A stretch of 53,874 nucleotides of DNA. It comes from Rariglobus sp. (GTDB taxonomy: Bacteria; Verrucomicrobiota; Verrucomicrobiia; Opitutales; Opitutaceae). The stretch lies in NCBI GenBank assembly GCA_029266495.1, contig JAQSWS010000015.1, positions 1 to 53,874 of the forward strand, written 5' to 3'. Made by a program: the position numbers and the translations under genes. Of the stretch, positions 45,935 through 53,698 are shown piece after piece. The notes under the pieces were generated by a model. The model had not been told where the DNA came from, ran no database searches, and was given only the letters and a program-made list of their open reading frames with translations. The stretch's first letter is position 1; every line of letters starts with the position of its first letter.

Positions 45935-46840
45935 ATGAGTTCCTATAATCTCACGCATCTCGCCCAGCTCGAACACGAGGCCATCTTTATCATGCGCGAA
46001 GTCGCCGCCCAATTCGAGCGGCCCGCCTTGCTGTTCTCCGGGGGCAAAGACTCCATCGTCATGGTCCGCCTCGCCCAAAAGGCCTTCGCCCCGGCCAAGA
46101 TTCCGTTCCCGCTCGTCCACATCGACACCGGCCACAATTTCGAGGAGACGATCACCTTCCGCGACTGGCTGGCCAAGGACACCGGCAGCCGTCTCGTCGT
46201 GCGTTACGTGGCGGACTCCATCAAGGCGGGCCGCGCCCAGGAGGAGAAGGGCCCGAATCCGTCTCGCAACGGTCTCCAGACGATCACGCTCCTCGATACG
46301 ATCGAGGAGTTCCGTTACGACGCCTGTTTGGGCGGCGCCCGCCGCGACGAGGAAAAGGCCCGCGCCAAGGAGCGTTTCTTCTCGCACCGCGACGAGTTCG
46401 GCCAGTGGGATCCGAAGAACCAGCGCCCCGAGCTCTGGAATCTGTTCAACGGCCGTAAAAATCCCGGCGAGCACTTCCGCGTGTTCCCGCTCTCCAATTG
46501 GACCGAGATGGACGTGTGGCAATACATCGCCCGCGAGAAACTCGACATCCCGTCGATCTATTTCACGCATCAACGCGAGGTCGTGAATCGCAACGGGGTG
46601 CTTCTCTCCAAGTCGCCCTACATCACGCTGCTTGAGGGCGAGAAATATGAGACCCGCACCGTGCGCTACCGCACCGTGGGCGACAGCACCTGCACGGGTG
46701 CGGTCGAATCCGACGCCGCCGATCTCGCGGCGATCATTCAGGAAGTCGCCTCCGCCCGCCAGACCGAGCGCGGCACGCGCGCCGACGACAAGCGTTCCGA
46801 AACCGCCATGGAAGACCGCAAAAAGGCGGGGTATTTCTGA
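45935..46840 (+). CDS. cysD: sulfate adenylyltransferase subunit 2
   Basis: This 301-residue small subunit of ATP sulfurylase has the PP-loop LFSGGKDSIVM near residue 34, HIDTGHNFEETI, and LGGARRDEEKARAKER, with the C-terminal RKKAGYF block. It forms APS from ATP and sulfate together with the GTPase CysN. Normally cysD and cysN are adjacent; here they are separated by 578 bases filled by the GxxExxY unit. Confidence 0.96.
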   Translation: MSSYNLTHLAQLEHEAIFIMREVAAQFERPALLFSGGKDSIVMVRLAQKAFAPAKIPFPLVHIDTGHNFEETITFRDWLAKDTGSRLVVRYVADSIKAGRAQEEKGPNPSRNGLQTITLLDTIEEFRYDACLGGARRDEEKARAKERFFSHRDEFGQWDPKNQRPELWNLFNGRKNPGEHFRVFPLSNWTEMDVWQYIAREKLDIPSIYFTHQREVVNRNGVLLSKSPYITLLEGEKYETRTVRYRTVGDSTCTGAVESDAADLAAIIQEVASARQTERGTRADDKRSETAMEDRKKAGYF

Positions 46841-46850
46841 GCGCGGAATC

Positions 46851-46886
46851 TTAACGCAAAGACGCGAAGACACAAAGGCCGCAAAG
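46851..46886. repeat. left inverted repeat of the GxxExxY unit
   Basis: The repeat starts TTAACGCAAAGACGCGAAG and continues as CACAAAG-type units to the base before the gene's start region (ATG 46888). The rhythm is close to 8 bases. The reverse complement of 47346-47381 matches it at 30 of 36 positions. Confidence 0.75.
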
Positions 46887-46887
46887 C

Positions 46888-47274
46888 ATGGAACTGGACG
46901 AAAACGCTCTCAGCCGGATTATCGTGGAAGCCGCGATAGAGGTCCATCGCGAGCTGGGTGGACCTGGCTTGCTGGAGAGTGTTTATGAGGAAGCGCTCGT
47001 ATGTGAACTTACTTTGCGCGGTCTCAGTGTTGAGCGTCAGCAGTTGGTTCCCATCATTTATAAGACGCATGTTCTCGCGACTCCTCTTCGTCTCGATCTT
47101 CGTGTGAACAAACTCGTGATCGTCGACCCCAAGGCAGTCACCGAATGGAATCCGATCTTTGAAGCTCAGATGCTCACCTACCTGCGTCTCACGGGGCTCA
47201 AGCTCGGCTTGGTAATCAACTTTGGCGAACGACTCGTCAAAGACGGCATCCATCGCGTCGTGAACCGTCTTTAG
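46888..47274 (+). CDS. GxxExxY family protein (PD-(D/E)XK nuclease-like)
   Basis: This 128-residue protein has the family's normal length. The naming motif is G27-L-L-E30-S-V-Y33. A putative PD-(D/E)XK site is D70 (RLDLRV) and D80-P81-K82 (VIVDPKAV); most relatives have E-L-K at the last position, so the Asp-Pro variant is unusual yet still fits the (D/E)XK pattern. Q94 in EAQMLTYL may complete the site. The family is assigned to the nuclease superfamily, but no activity is established. The ATG follows the left repeat by one base and there is no clear Shine-Dalgarno sequence apart from the purine-rich repeat. It sits inside the cys operon. Confidence 0.9.
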   Translation: MELDENALSRIIVEAAIEVHRELGGPGLLESVYEEALVCELTLRGLSVERQQLVPIIYKTHVLATPLRLDLRVNKLVIVDPKAVTEWNPIFEAQMLTYLRLTGLKLGLVINFGERLVKDGIHRVVNRL

Positions 47275-47291
47275 CCCACCCAATCCAATTG

Positions 47292-47315
47292 GCGCAAATA
47301 CGCAGAGGCGCAAAG
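47292..47315. repeat. internal CGCAAAG-type repeat after the GxxExxY gene
   Basis: GCGCAAATACGCAGAGGCGC followed by AAAG lies 17 bases past the gene's stop and is in the same orientation as the left terminal repeat, with the same 8-base rhythm. It may be an extra end or a regulatory copy. Confidence 0.55.
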
Positions 47316-47345
47316 CCCGCCAGCAACCATCTTCCTGATTTCGAT

Positions 47346-47381
47346 CTTTGCGTCCTTAGCACCTTCGCGTCCTTGCGTTAA
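47346..47381. repeat. right inverted repeat of the GxxExxY unit
   Basis: CTTTGCGTCCTTAGCACC and the following CGCGTCCTTGCGTTAA-type end are the inverted counterpart of the left repeat. It ends in TTAA at 47378-47381, mirroring TTAA at 46851-46854. Confidence 0.75.
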
Positions 47382-47418
47382 AACTCCTCAGTTCGACACC
47401 TTCCCCCTTTTCCATAAA

Positions 47419-48711
47419 ATGACCGCTGCCACTCCCGTTCACCAGCACACCGACCAGCACTACCTTGCGATGGACCTGCTCCGCTTCACGACGGCGGGCA
47501 GCGTCGACGATGGCAAATCCACCCTCATCGGGCGTCTGCTCTACGACTCCAAGGCGATCTTCGAAGACCAGCTCGAAGCCATCGAACGCGCCACCGAGCA
47601 GCGCGGCGAGGACCACCTCAACCTTTCGCTTCTCACCGACGGCCTGCGCGCCGAGCGCGAGCAGGGCATCACCATCGACGTCGCCTACCGCTATTTTGCC
47701 ACGCCCCGTCGCAAGTTCATCGTCGCCGATACGCCCGGCCACATCCAATACACGCGCAACATGGTGACGGGCGCCTCCACCGCCAACCTCGCCATCATCC
47801 TCATCGACGCACGCAAGGGAGTGATCGAGCAGACCTGCCGCCACTCCTTCATCGCCTCGCTCCTCCGGATTCCCCACGTCGTCGTGTGCGTGAACAAGAT
47901 GGACCTCGTTGAGTTTTCCGAGGCGCGCTTCAACGAGATCGTCGCGGCCTATTCCGAGTTCGCCTCCCGCCTGGAGATCCCCGACATCAAATTCATTCCG
48001 ATCTCCGCGCTTCACGGCGACAACGTCGTCGATCGCTCCCCCCGGACTCCCTGGTATCAGGGCAGCCCGCTGCTCTATACGCTGGAGACCGTTTACATCG
48101 GCAGCGACGTGAACCACATCGACGCGCGTTTCCCGGTGCAGACCGTGATTCGTCCCAACAACGACGAGCACCACGATTTCCGCGGGTTCGCGGGTCGCGT
48201 GGCCGGCGGTGTATTCAAACCCGGCGACGAAATCGTCTCCCAGCCCTCCGGCCTGACCTCCCGCATCAAGTCCATTCACGGTCCCGCCGGCGACCTGGAG
48301 GAGGCCTTTGCCCCCATGTCGGTCGTGATGACCCTGGAGGATGAGATCGATGTCTCGCGCGGCGACACCATCACCAAGGCCAACAACCCGCCGAACGTCA
48401 CGCAGGACATCGAGGCGATGATCTGCTGGTTCTCCGACAAAAAGCTCGTCCCGAACGGCAAATACATCATCCGCCACACGACGCGCGAAGCGAAGTCGGT
48501 GATCAAGGGCGTGCGCTACAAGGTGAATATCAACACCCTGCACAAGCTTGAGGGTGACACCGAGATCGGCATGAACGACATCGGACGCATCCAGTTGCGC
48601 ACGGCGGTGCCCCTGATCGCCGACGCCTATCAGCGGAACCGCAACACCGGCAGCTTCATCCTCATCGACGAATTCACCAACGCCACGGTGGCGGCCGGGA
48701 TGATCCTTTGA
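47419..48711 (+). CDS. cysN: sulfate adenylyltransferase subunit 1 (GTPase)
   Basis: This 430-residue GTPase subunit of ATP sulfurylase has the G1 motif GSVDDGKSTLIGRL near residue 28, DTPGH (G3) and CVNKMDLV (G4). Later domains (RFPVQTVIRPNNDEHHDFRG onward) are elongation-factor-like beta barrels. GTP hydrolysis drives APS formation with CysD. It has no fused APS kinase, in agreement with the separate cysC upstream. If the operon is still one transcript, it must read through the GxxExxY unit. Confidence 0.96.
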   Translation: MTAATPVHQHTDQHYLAMDLLRFTTAGSVDDGKSTLIGRLLYDSKAIFEDQLEAIERATEQRGEDHLNLSLLTDGLRAEREQGITIDVAYRYFATPRRKFIVADTPGHIQYTRNMVTGASTANLAIILIDARKGVIEQTCRHSFIASLLRIPHVVVCVNKMDLVEFSEARFNEIVAAYSEFASRLEIPDIKFIPISALHGDNVVDRSPRTPWYQGSPLLYTLETVYIGSDVNHIDARFPVQTVIRPNNDEHHDFRGFAGRVAGGVFKPGDEIVSQPSGLTSRIKSIHGPAGDLEEAFAPMSVVMTLEDEIDVSRGDTITKANNPPNVTQDIEAMICWFSDKKLVPNGKYIIRHTTREAKSVIKGVRYKVNINTLHKLEGDTEIGMNDIGRIQLRTAVPLIADAYQRNRNTGSFILIDEFTNATVAAGMIL

Positions 48712-50927: not shown

Positions 50928-51165
50928 GGCAGGGCGGAGCGGGGCTTCTTCCGAATTGGTGCGGTCGAACCGTGTCTGAGAGTGCGGGTTTGTTCGTTCG
51001 GACGAGCTGGCATGCGGCCTTGGGGCTGGCTGATGTCGAGCGGACGATGTCCGGTGGTTTTCCGGTAATTCCCCTATGTCTGCTTCGCGCGCAGTTCTTT
51101 TTCGGAGCGCCTACTTTTGCGTTGAAGAAGTGAGAGAGTTGGATTGGTTGGGGCGTATCCCCCTT

Positions 51166-51837
51166 ATGCATACCCTTGCACGTCCCTCCGTGCGTGTGGC
51201 CAACCTGAAGCGCCAGGCTGGCACCCGCGCCTTTACGCTGATCGAGTTGCTAGTGGTCATCGCGATCATCGCGATCCTCGCCAGCATCACCTTTGGCGTT
51301 ATCAAAGGGGTCAACGAGCGTGCGGCGATTGCGCAGGCAAAGACGGAGGTGGCGGTTTTGGCGCAGGCGCTGGAAGCCTTTAAGAAGCAGTATGGTGATT
51401 ATCCTCAAACTGGTGGTTTTACATCGGCCGGGATTAACGGAACTCCCACGATTGGCAGTATAACGACCGCTAGCGCTCAAGCGAAATTATTTAATGCGTT
51501 GGTCGGAAAGCTGGGGCCAACCTGTGTGGTAATGAAGCGGCCCGGTGGAAAAATGTGGGTGGATATCTCCAAGTTCTCTTTGGAGACGACGACAATGCCC
51601 GCAATTGAGCCTACGCCAATCACCGAGGACGTTACGCAGGCTGCAAACGCCTTTCTTGATCCATGGGGGCGCCGATATATGTATTACTACAAGACCGCAG
51701 GATCGACGACGTGGAAGCATCCCAGCTATTTTCTTTATTCGGTTGGCCCCGACGGACAGGATACACCACCTAGTGCTACCACCATTACCTACACGGATAC
51801 CAAAAACTTGGATAATCTTTATGCAAATAGGAATTAA
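51166..51837 (+). CDS. prepilin-like protein, GspG type
   Basis: ATG 51166 is chosen because it gives a short leader (MHTLARPSVRVANLKRQAGT), then the prepilin site RAFTLIELLVVIAIIAILAS; the frame is open for 30 more codons upstream. The 223-residue product has the long hydrophobic helix, a globular part with KTEVAVLAQALEAFKKQYGD and a DPWGRRYMYYY stretch like major pseudopilins. The residue before Phe is Ala rather than the usual Gly, which still occurs in this phylum. It begins a run of five prepilin genes and is processed by a prepilin peptidase not present here. Confidence 0.85.
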   Translation: MHTLARPSVRVANLKRQAGTRAFTLIELLVVIAIIAILASITFGVIKGVNERAAIAQAKTEVAVLAQALEAFKKQYGDYPQTGGFTSAGINGTPTIGSITTASAQAKLFNALVGKLGPTCVVMKRPGGKMWVDISKFSLETTTMPAIEPTPITEDVTQAANAFLDPWGRRYMYYYKTAGSTTWKHPSYFLYSVGPDGQDTPPSATTITYTDTKNLDNLYANRN

Positions 51838-52498
51838 TTATAATTTGGCCGGCTTTACTCTTGGGCAATCGCATGGCCGCACGAGGAAGGGATTTACGCT
51901 TATTGAACTTCTTACTGTTATTGCTATTATCGGTATTTTGGCAGGCATTATCATACCGACTGTGGGCTCGGTTAAAATTTCTGCCAACAAGGCCAAGAGC
52001 AAGACGCAGTTTACTCAATGGGCGGCGTCCACCGAGCTTTTTAAGCAAGAGTATGGATATTATCCCCGCTTGTCTTCAGCTGCCGGCTCTGGATTGATCG
52101 ACCCGACCAATTTTTTTGCTAATTTGACTGCAAGGAGTTATAACGGAACCGCTTTGACGGGGGGGGCGCTTGTAGATAATAAGCGGAAGTTATCCTTTTA
52201 TTCAGTTTCTGATAGTGAGCTTGCCAAGGATGGTTCCGGTGCTCCCATGAATCTGATTGTTGATGCTTTTGGTAATTCCGCGATTATGGTAATGCTTGAT
52301 GCCAATGGTGATGGGGTCATCAAGGACGGCGAGCGTAGGACGGATAAACTTGCCGGAGGTAATATCAGCGATCCAAGTAGTGAGTCGAGTGCCTTAACGA
52401 GCGGATCTGTGGATAGCGCAGACATCAGGTCGGGGGTGGCGTTTTATTCTGCGGGCAGAAACAATACTATAACCGATTATGTTTACAGCTGGAAATAA
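51821..52498 (+). CDS. prepilin-like protein, GspG type
   Basis: ATG 51821 overlaps the preceding stop by 17 bases and yields MQIGINYNLAGFTLGQSHGR followed by KGFTLIELLTVIAIIGILAG, giving 225 residues; an in-frame TTG at 51845 is an alternative. The globular domain has TQWAASTELFKQEYGYYPR and a calcium-loop-like DANGDGVIKDG near the end. It looks paralogous to the first prepilin gene. Base composition here is visibly more AT-rich than in the polysaccharide locus. Confidence 0.85.
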   Translation: MQIGINYNLAGFTLGQSHGRTRKGFTLIELLTVIAIIGILAGIIIPTVGSVKISANKAKSKTQFTQWAASTELFKQEYGYYPRLSSAAGSGLIDPTNFFANLTARSYNGTALTGGALVDNKRKLSFYSVSDSELAKDGSGAPMNLIVDAFGNSAIMVMLDANGDGVIKDGERRTDKLAGGNISDPSSESSALTSGSVDSADIRSGVAFYSAGRNNTITDYVYSWK

Positions 52499-53150
52499 TT
52501 CTCGCCGCCTTGCCCGCGGTTTTACTCTGATTGAGCTCTTGGTGGTGATTGGGCTCATTAGTATCTTGGCTGCGGGCATCGGAATATCGATGCGCGAAGG
52601 TAATCCTACTTCCTCGCTTCGAGGCGGTCAGAACACATTGGTAGGCCTGTTGTCGAGTGCACGGGGGCAGGCCGCTCTGAGTCAGGCGGATGCGATGATC
52701 ATCGTGGATGTCACCTCGGTGGAAGAAGAACTCTTTTTACGTTCATTGCAGGTGGTGGTGCGCTCCGGAGCAGGTTGGCGCCCGGTTGGCGCCCCTGTGA
52801 TGCTACCACCAGGGATATTTGTTGTGCCCCCGCAGGGAACTTCGTTAGTCACTTTTACAGGAACTTGGGACGCCAAAAGAAAATCATCAGGATTTGATTC
52901 CTCTATTAGTGGAGTTGATCCAGCCGACACCACGAATAATCAGCTCCTCGGGCGCACATATTTGAAATTTCAAAACTTCACGGCGCTTGGGACAACGAGC
53001 GGAACAGGTCGGATATTGGTTACACCCGGGAAACGCACAAGTTCAACTACGATTGAACTGGACAATCCTGAGATGCTTCGTGGGGTGACGGTGAGTCGTT
53101 ACGGAGTGCCTACCCTCATCAACGAAGCGGGGACATTTGATAATCTATAA
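52479..53150 (+). CDS. prepilin-like protein, Verru_Chthon cassette D type
   Basis: This 223-residue protein starts inside the previous gene (20-base overlap). The prepilin site is RGFTLIELLVVIGLISILAA followed by SSARGQAALSQADAMIIVDV, the GspH-like pattern of minor pseudopilins. The family link to cassette protein D is from recalled features of that family, not a search. It ends in TAATG, sharing a base with the next start. Confidence 0.75.
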   Translation: MFTAGNNSRRLARGFTLIELLVVIGLISILAAGIGISMREGNPTSSLRGGQNTLVGLLSSARGQAALSQADAMIIVDVTSVEEELFLRSLQVVVRSGAGWRPVGAPVMLPPGIFVVPPQGTSLVTFTGTWDAKRKSSGFDSSISGVDPADTTNNQLLGRTYLKFQNFTALGTTSGTGRILVTPGKRTSSTTIELDNPEMLRGVTVSRYGVPTLINEAGTFDNL

Positions 53151-53698
53151 TGAAATCGACGAACTTACATGTCAAAGCTGACGGTGCCCGTGCGGGCTTT
53201 TCATTGGTCGAGGTTGTAGTAGCTGTCGGCATTTTTGCACTGGCTATCGTAGGGGTCATTGGACTCTTGGTTCCAACGAGCAAAAATATTGCCGATGTCG
53301 CCGATTCTGATGCGGCGTCCCGCGTGATATCCGCAATTCAATCCGGTCTGCAGAAAAGTGGTGGTTACGCCGGCGTTCAAGCCGCCTTAAACGCGCCAAA
53401 CACAATATTTTACGCATCCAAAGATGGCAGCAAGGTTGGTGTGTCGACCGATCCGATGTGGACCACAGGTCAGAATCAGGAAAGGTTTTTTGAATTTAAG
53501 CTCGTTCGAAACGGCGACACCCCGGCTGTCGGCGATGGTCTTTCGCCTGCGGCCAACGACAATACGGCTGGGTTCTTGGCGTTCACTATTGTTTTGAAGT
53601 GGCCCGCGTTTGCGCCAACGGCCGATGGCCTAACTGGAACGGCGGTCGAAGATTCACAGAAAAGCGTTATGGTAGTGCCTGCTGCGATTACACGATGA
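53150..53698 (+). CDS. prepilin-like protein, Verru_Chthon cassette B type
   Basis: This 182-residue protein has the prepilin site RAGFSLVEVVVAVGIFALAI and a short globular part ending SVMVVPAAITR. The GFSLVEV start and GVIGLLVPTSKNIADVADSD segment resemble GspI-type minor pseudopilins and the cassette B proteins. Its stop is overlapped by the next start (ATGA). Confidence 0.75.
   Translation: MKSTNLHVKADGARAGFSLVEVVVAVGIFALAIVGVIGLLVPTSKNIADVADSDAASRVISAIQSGLQKSGGYAGVQAALNAPNTIFYASKDGSKVGVSTDPMWTTGQNQERFFEFKLVRNGDTPAVGDGLSPAANDNTAGFLAFTIVLKWPAFAPTADGLTGTAVEDSQKSVMVVPAAITR

Follow-up and report, generated by a model that had tools for sequence, protein, structure and literature searches.

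A transposase-free unit with inverted 7-mer arrays and a GxxExxY gene between cysD and cysN: a candidate REPtron-like element

The genes cysD and cysN, for the small subunit and the GTPase subunit of sulfate adenylyltransferase, are split in the DNA analysed here by 578 nt with another gene between them. What is this insert, and by what means did it come to lie within an operon? The window, as we call the whole analysed stretch of 53,874 nt, makes up contig C93 of genome G000, which totals 4.9 Mb in 172 contigs. All three genes are on the + strand: cysD at 45935..46840 (PF01507, E 3.4e-40), a gene for a GxxExxY protein of 128 amino acids at 46888..47274, and cysN at 47419..48711 (PF00009, E 2.1e-43). 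These coordinates and the family matches given below bear out the split reported in a preliminary description of the locus.

The gene is bounded by two arms. The left arm (46845..46893, +) starts with GGAATCTTAA, continues with the 7-mers CGCAAAG (46855-46861), CGCGAAG (46863-46869), CACAAAG (46871-46877) and CGCAAAG (46880-46886), and reaches into the start codon. The right arm (47340..47387, -) carries the inverted units CTTTGCG, CTTAGCA, CTTCGCG and CCTTGCG, followed by TTAAAACTCC. Their alignment scores 22.5, against a mean of 8.55 and a maximum of 15.5 for 5000 resampled flank pairs, none of which (0/5000) scored as high. The preliminary description had delimited a unit of 531 bases with 36-base inverted ends, each made of about four 8-base CGCAAAG units. 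The match of 30/36 positions and the number of units hold, but the unit is larger (about 46845-47387) and its repeats are 7-mers of variant sequence with short spacers (1-2 nt in the left arm). The arms start with TTAACGC, and an outer CGGATTTTTAAC-like end is common, by eye, to several other copies in the window genome. Because these copies carry like outer ends and the alignment runs past the TTAA, this tetranucleotide is arm sequence; the idea that it is a target duplication is rejected, and no duplication was seen. On the 3' side of the gene, a pattern match with 2 mismatches revealed a second left-type array (CGCAAAT, CGCAGAG, CGCAAAG; 47293..47315, +). It pairs with the right arm as a separate gene-less palindrome, so the window copy is compound.

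The gene product is a clear member of the GxxExxY family (TIGR04256, E 1.4e-38, 131.8 bits for a curated cut-off of 35; PF13366, PDDEXK_3, E 4.3e-36, 124.3 bits for a cut-off of 22). A Pfam search of the gene returned PF13366 as the sole match and no transposase family, and two overlapping ORFs in other frames had no match; no HUH/Y1 transposase was found between the window palindromes by these searches. The defence and phage collections PADLOC and PHROGs gave no match either. In the alignments the window protein shows E30, D70, D80, K82, Q94 and Y98. Among 48 aligned sequences E30, D70 and K82 are invariant and Q94 and Y98 occur in at least 90%; position 80 is E in at least 90% of the sequences and D in the window protein. 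The PD-(D/E)XK active-site set is thereby present, together with the Q94/Y98 pair that we take to be its QxxxY motif. The structure model (pLDDT 95.9) adopts a PD-(D/E)XK fold, and its best solved match is 4ic1 (SSO0001; Foldseek E 7.2e-4; Z 9.3 over 100 residues, 3.8 A), a Cas4-family nuclease. This is the only solved chain that reaches a Z of at least 8, the others remaining at 7.3 or below. The next Foldseek matches include lambda exonuclease, LHK-Exo and a tRNA splicing endonuclease; a sequence search for solved relatives found none convincing (best E 0.14). The protein is thus predicted to have a nuclease fold, and it may act as a nuclease on the arms.

Arms of this kind regularly accompany the gene family. 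With one procedure and a score of at least 13.5, inverted arms were detected at 81/94 GxxExxY genes, 48/73 S23 genes and 2/206 neighbour genes; the two families are represented by a sample of matches (fetched loci, strong matches favoured), and the neighbours are the longest ORFs of the same loci, among which false ORFs may occur. Three of the 13 GxxExxY genes that are arm-less by this threshold are fragments of less than 95 amino acids; the other 10 have at least 120. A cross-phylum sample gave arms in 58/77 loci. By record titles it includes Cyanobacteria, Bacteroidota, Acidobacteria, Planctomycetes, Nitrospirota and Chloroflexota, along with some loci of the window phylum; 80 loci were fetched, of which 78 entered one analysis (two with short flanks were dropped) and 77 the other (L262, L300 and L331 are missing).

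The arm unit of GxxExxY genes is the 7-mer CRCNRAN, with a commonest period of 8-10 nt. It occurs at least twice on both sides of 69/94 GxxExxY genes, as compared with 5/94 for the opposite orientation, 8/206 neighbour genes and 3/73 S23 genes. Within one locus, the units agree at positions 2, 5 and 7 in 85-89% of pairs versus 44-73% for random 7-mers passed through the same filter, an agreement that is partly built in because the regular expression, which fixes positions 1, 3 and 6, also limits these three. Immediately outside the units, bases match in 31-40% of within-locus pairs and in 26-31% of between-locus pairs. Compensatory pairing of the arms was looked for in two families and not found. 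Complementarity of own versus cross-copy arms was 23.25 versus 23.96 for 16 copies of the window genome and 23.53 versus 23.88 for 15 copies of genome G042, in a test where the right arm of the window copy was taken with a one-base offset and the aligner permits end gaps. Since own arms are no more complementary than cross-copy arms, each arm appears to follow the 7-mer and not its partner. This uncoupling speaks for recognition of the arms via their units rather than for selection on an exact stem.

The 7-mer also varies together with the protein. When the last base of the unit was mapped onto a tree of 65 proteins from relatives, it required 7 changes, whereas shuffled labels required 29.2. 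This led to a prediction of the last base for newly fetched loci. Among 80 new loci fetched with a clade-1 query after the rule had been seen, the last base was G in 51/51 labelled loci. A clade-2 query of 288 genomes of the window phylum, 148 of which had a match, gave a base other than G in 34/35 labelled loci (50 fetched, 46 used; L339, L351, L358 and L363 were left out, their places being already in the first set). Over all loci the last base needs 11 changes against 61.2 with shuffled labels (151 labelled of 217). Loci with fewer than four agreeing units or an arm score below 12 were left unlabelled, namely 66/217 in all and 29/94 among the relatives. Positions 2, 4 and 5 also group on the tree, to a lesser degree (25, 21 and 26 changes, compared with about 50, 58 and 49). 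Between loci without homologous flanks, arm likeness rises with protein identity (Mantel r 0.276, 0/2000), and the same test on S23 gave r 0.232 (0/2000). Part of the co-variation is co-inheritance, since gene and arms are linked; neutral linked DNA at such protein distances would hardly be expected to retain one 7-mer amid scrambled spacers. Protein clade and 7-mer are paired in nature (G-type such as CGCAAAG with clade 1, A/T-type such as CACGAAA with clade 2), which opens the way to a direct swap test of specificity.

Similar arrays occur as palindromes devoid of a gene. One arm pattern, with up to 3 mismatches, matches 48 places in the window genome versus 2 for the reversed pattern. Around these matches 22 loci were inspected, and in 17 the limits of a paired palindrome (56-256 nt) could be set, mostly with TTAACGC-type ends. 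The copies lie at many unrelated junctions; homing, raised in the preliminary description, may or may not be involved. In addition, the palindromes inspected elsewhere in this genome hold no gene of the GxxExxY kind. In G042 (3.4 Mb), the arm found on either side of two GxxExxY genes of this genome has 370 matches with up to 2 mismatches and its reversed pattern 0. In 30 G042 loci inspected (L224-L253), these matches are often found nested among further small palindromes (GGATCCGGCTTCGCCGG, GGGGGACATTCCTGTCCCCC). The window genome seems to have a second GxxExxY gene, divided between the ends of contigs C13 and C9 (L003 1-250, L002 1-230); it lies between pyrB-like and pyrC-like genes, named by sequence reading, and has other 7-mer arms (CACGAAA/CACAAAA).

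The abundance of such palindromes is associated with the resident gene. Counts of three arm patterns across 56 genomes gave 0-346 palindrome matches for the 40 with GxxExxY and 0-12 for the 16 without it (p 9.6e-7, for phylogenetically non-independent genomes and with the genes' own arms included). Palindromes of a given type are commoner where labelled resident genes have arms of that type (6 versus 29 genomes, p 0.008; 13 versus 22, p 0.0008; 8 versus 27, p 0.0007; kinship ignored, own arms included). Against the trend, G026 (81% complete) has 12 arm matches and no gene, and three gene-bearing genomes (G003, G034, G037) have 0 arm matches. Repeats scattered around unrelated genes, independently of GxxExxY, had been named in the preliminary description as speaking against its reading. 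The repeats are indeed widespread, but their abundance and 7-mer type track the resident GxxExxY gene.

Relatives were then compared at the cysD-cysN junction. A cysD match was obtained in 40/56 genomes, 30 loci were fetched and 18 junctions displayed. Among 10 readable junctions of the same genus, GxxExxY is present in 2 (G000, G002) and absent from 8. This comparison, proposed earlier, yielded no exact empty site: some of the eight gene-free junctions are short and some hold other sequence. The junction of G010 has a stretch that by eye resembles a decayed right arm, those of G009, G012, G017 and G034 have gene-less palindromes of other families (also by eye), and that of G032 has an S23 gene with weak arms (score 10.5). 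The palindromes of G009 and G012 (L036, L038) are of the type CCCAAACGCCAAAG. Ten of the 17 gene-less sites of the window genome were comparable with G010, G009 or G002. At 10/10 the palindrome is absent in at least one relative, and at 3/10 (L010, L018, L020) it is common to at least one. At L006, L008, L010 and L018 the place is taken in a relative by a different palindrome or by a GxxExxY element. Occupancy thus turns over at junctions that the relatives share.

Among the GxxExxY copies only a single clear and recent duplication was found. Two GxxExxY copies on one contig of G042 are 95.5% identical over 465 nt, gene and arms included, and have unrelated flanks; G042 also has an S23 pair, with 92.7% identity over 453 nt. 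Of the remaining loci, many are orthologous across a genus or family and vertically inherited. No target-site duplication was seen in the two G042 pairs or the 10 compared sites of the window genome, and because the intergenic flanks are too diverged, neither a duplication nor an exact empty site can be fixed. The GxxExxY copies of G000 and G002 give a dN/dS of 0.038 at a dS of 1.85 (near saturation), and cysD gives 0.029; the gene is under purifying selection. That a unit lacking a transposase is tolerated inside operons and bears signs of mobility, as had been suggested, is supported by the 2/10 junction occupancy and by the G042 copy. The related notion of a minimal mobile element built on a nuclease-fold gene survives in this sense, but not as a self-contained rarity, for gene-less palindromes occur elsewhere. 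With regard to spacing, the G042 pair lies about 2.3 kb apart, and a gene-less CACAGAG palindrome (L389, G002:C1:123407) is separated by about 7 kb from a GxxExxY element whose arm is almost the same (L077, G002:C1:116297). Short-range movement may be indicated by this proximity.

Because the 7-mer changes with the protein and fills the genome as gene-less copies, a transposase-free mobile system in many phyla is pointed to. We propose, with slightly better than even confidence, that the unit is a copy of a REPtron-like element in which a PD-(D/E)XK nuclease takes the place of the Y1 transposase. The GxxExxY nuclease would recognise its own 7-mer, CRCNRAN, in inverted arrays with units 8-10 nt apart, at the two ends of its gene as well as at the gene-less palindromes elsewhere. 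It would probably cut or nick at the arms, and the arm-bounded DNA could then be copied or moved into short intergenic gaps by host replication and repair. Direct binding of the 7-mer, catalysis and nuclease-driven spread are what we infer here. REPtrons consist of REP/REPIN palindromes and a TnpAREP (RAYT) gene (PMC8266576, PMC3116915). The likeness extends to a palindrome-bordered gene, many gene-less intergenic copies, a gene-specific recognition sequence and a gene kept more like a housekeeping than a transposase gene (PMC8266576, PMC3116915). The REPtron trait of dispersed gene-less palindromes matched to a resident gene is found here as a statistical association. In contrast, the GxxExxY protein has a PD-(D/E)XK nuclease fold where the REPtron protein is an HUH/Y1 transposase, the arms are arrays of 7-mers where a REP is one short hairpin with a GTAG or CGTC tag, and palindrome number here does not track Y1. 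MITEs of insertion sequences are gene-less inverted-repeat copies that share their ends with a gene-bearing copy. The gene-less copies described here do likewise, but the gene-bearing copy matches no transposase family and no target duplication was seen next to its diverged flanks.

The main rival places the element at the RNA level, like the intervening sequences of 23S rRNA. The arms would form a hairpin in the polycistronic mRNA, host RNase III would excise the insert and GxxExxY would be an RNA-binding or RNA-cutting partner, spread taking another route. The rRNA elements resemble the window unit in having one small ORF, inverted arms of heptameric repeats, a length of about 430-540 nt, no transposase and a place in a transcribed unit that tolerates them, and in the Coxiella example heptameric repeats precede the start codon of S23 and RNase III cleaves the element (PMC4990558). 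S23, the protein of these intervening sequences, is also found within inverted heptamer arms (the 48/73 genes above) and, in G032, between cysD and cysN itself. Moreover, co-directional placement prevails in tandem host gene pairs, with 41 co-directional and 14 antisense among 78 placed GxxExxY genes and 40 and 4 among 66 placed S23 genes (neighbours being the longest ORFs). The ORF of the rRNA elements is S23 (PF05635) and that of the window unit an unrelated protein (PF13366), the arm period is 7 nt or its double in S23 genes and 8-10 in GxxExxY, and the window unit lies in a protein operon, not in rRNA. The 14 antisense placements, the arms that follow the 7-mer and are no better matched to their own partner, and the type-matched gene-less copies, which RNA cutting alone leaves unexplained, argue against this rival. 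We consider it unlikely for GxxExxY; S23 elements are best compared with this RNA route.

It is also conceivable that GxxExxY is a passenger or helper and that a host Y1/HUH transposase of the RAYT type moves the palindromes. The architecture is like REP/RAYT, and Y1_Tnp is present in 41/56 relatives and in the window genome. Yet the number of palindromes goes with GxxExxY rather than with Y1: the six genomes with GxxExxY and no Y1 have 1, 7, 11, 45, 45 and 110 matches, and the seven with Y1 and no GxxExxY have 0, 0, 0, 1, 1, 2 and 12, although an absent Y1 may be unassembled since the genomes are mostly drafts. Co-variation with the 7-mer would be unexpected for a passenger, too, and a Y1/RAYT mover is thus unsupported and quite improbable. 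A domesticated host nuclease that removes or controls palindromes, as a cruciform guard or regulator, and had no part in spreading them would agree with vertical inheritance at several loci, with the dN/dS of 0.038 and with the presence of Holliday junction resolvases among the weaker structural matches (1gef, Z 7.0). A guard should reduce palindromes, yet gene-bearing genomes have more of them, and the gene itself sits inside such a palindrome and has been duplicated along with its arms; we regard this role as very improbable. Finally, intergenic hairpins are common and the palindromes inspected elsewhere in the window genome hold no such gene, as would suit ordinary inverted repeats or terminators with no special GxxExxY link. 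This is scarcely credible in view of arms at 81/94 GxxExxY genes versus 2/206 neighbours, of a 7-mer that co-varies with the protein, and of outer ends TTTTTAAC...GTTAAAAA which, by eye, have no 3' T-run of an intrinsic terminator.

The REPtron-like reading, if true, would give GxxExxY, a named family of unknown function encountered here in many phyla, a function in recognising CRCNRAN arrays and spreading arm-bounded DNA, and a large class of unexplained intergenic palindromes would gain an owner. The origin of the rRNA intervening sequences would also get a testable setting, because S23 proteins share the architecture in ordinary operons; arm-flanked S23 genes are likely the protein-operon counterpart of these sequences. 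A broader and more tentative idea, to which we give rather less than an even chance, is that bacteria harbour a distinct and widespread kind of transposase-free mobile DNA, built on a self-recognising pair of a small protein and a short word code (usually at least three 7-mers per end). GxxExxY and S23 would be independent versions, gene-less palindromes their dependents, and rRNA intervening sequences S23 versions that landed in rRNA. Since 7-mer and protein vary together, the family would hold a natural recognition code. S23 has a similar architecture and no nuclease fold, so what the two have in common may be something other than nuclease activity.

GxxExxY has been named as a gene beside a reverse transcriptase (PMC8934634). 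The literature searched, mostly without subscription journals and partly in excerpt, contained no function or arm association for GxxExxY, no mention of PDDEXK_3 or of the string CGCAAAGACGC, no joint treatment of intervening sequences and four-helix bundles, and no description of a GxxExxY-arm system.

Several minor observations may be added. The S23 four-helix-bundle genes examined (PF05635; L094-L123, L184-L223, L051) have, in 48/73 cases by the arm score, inverted arms of 7-nt tandem repeats such as AGGAGTC, GTTGAGA, AGTAGCG and AGGCTGT, and one of them (L207, G027:C18:10100-14500; arm score 23.0) lies directly 3' of a second cysD copy. Among three GxxExxY loci on viral contigs, one has CRCNRAN arrays and two have none, one of the latter bearing a strong inverted repeat of another type. 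A GxxExxY gene with CACAAAG/CACGAAG arms lies on an IMG/VR contig filed as viral (L334, IMGVR_UViG_3300032770_000220). Elsewhere in the window, positions 51076-53698 hold a row of four ORFs with, by eye, pseudopilin-like N-termini (FTLIELLVVIAIIAILA and similar).
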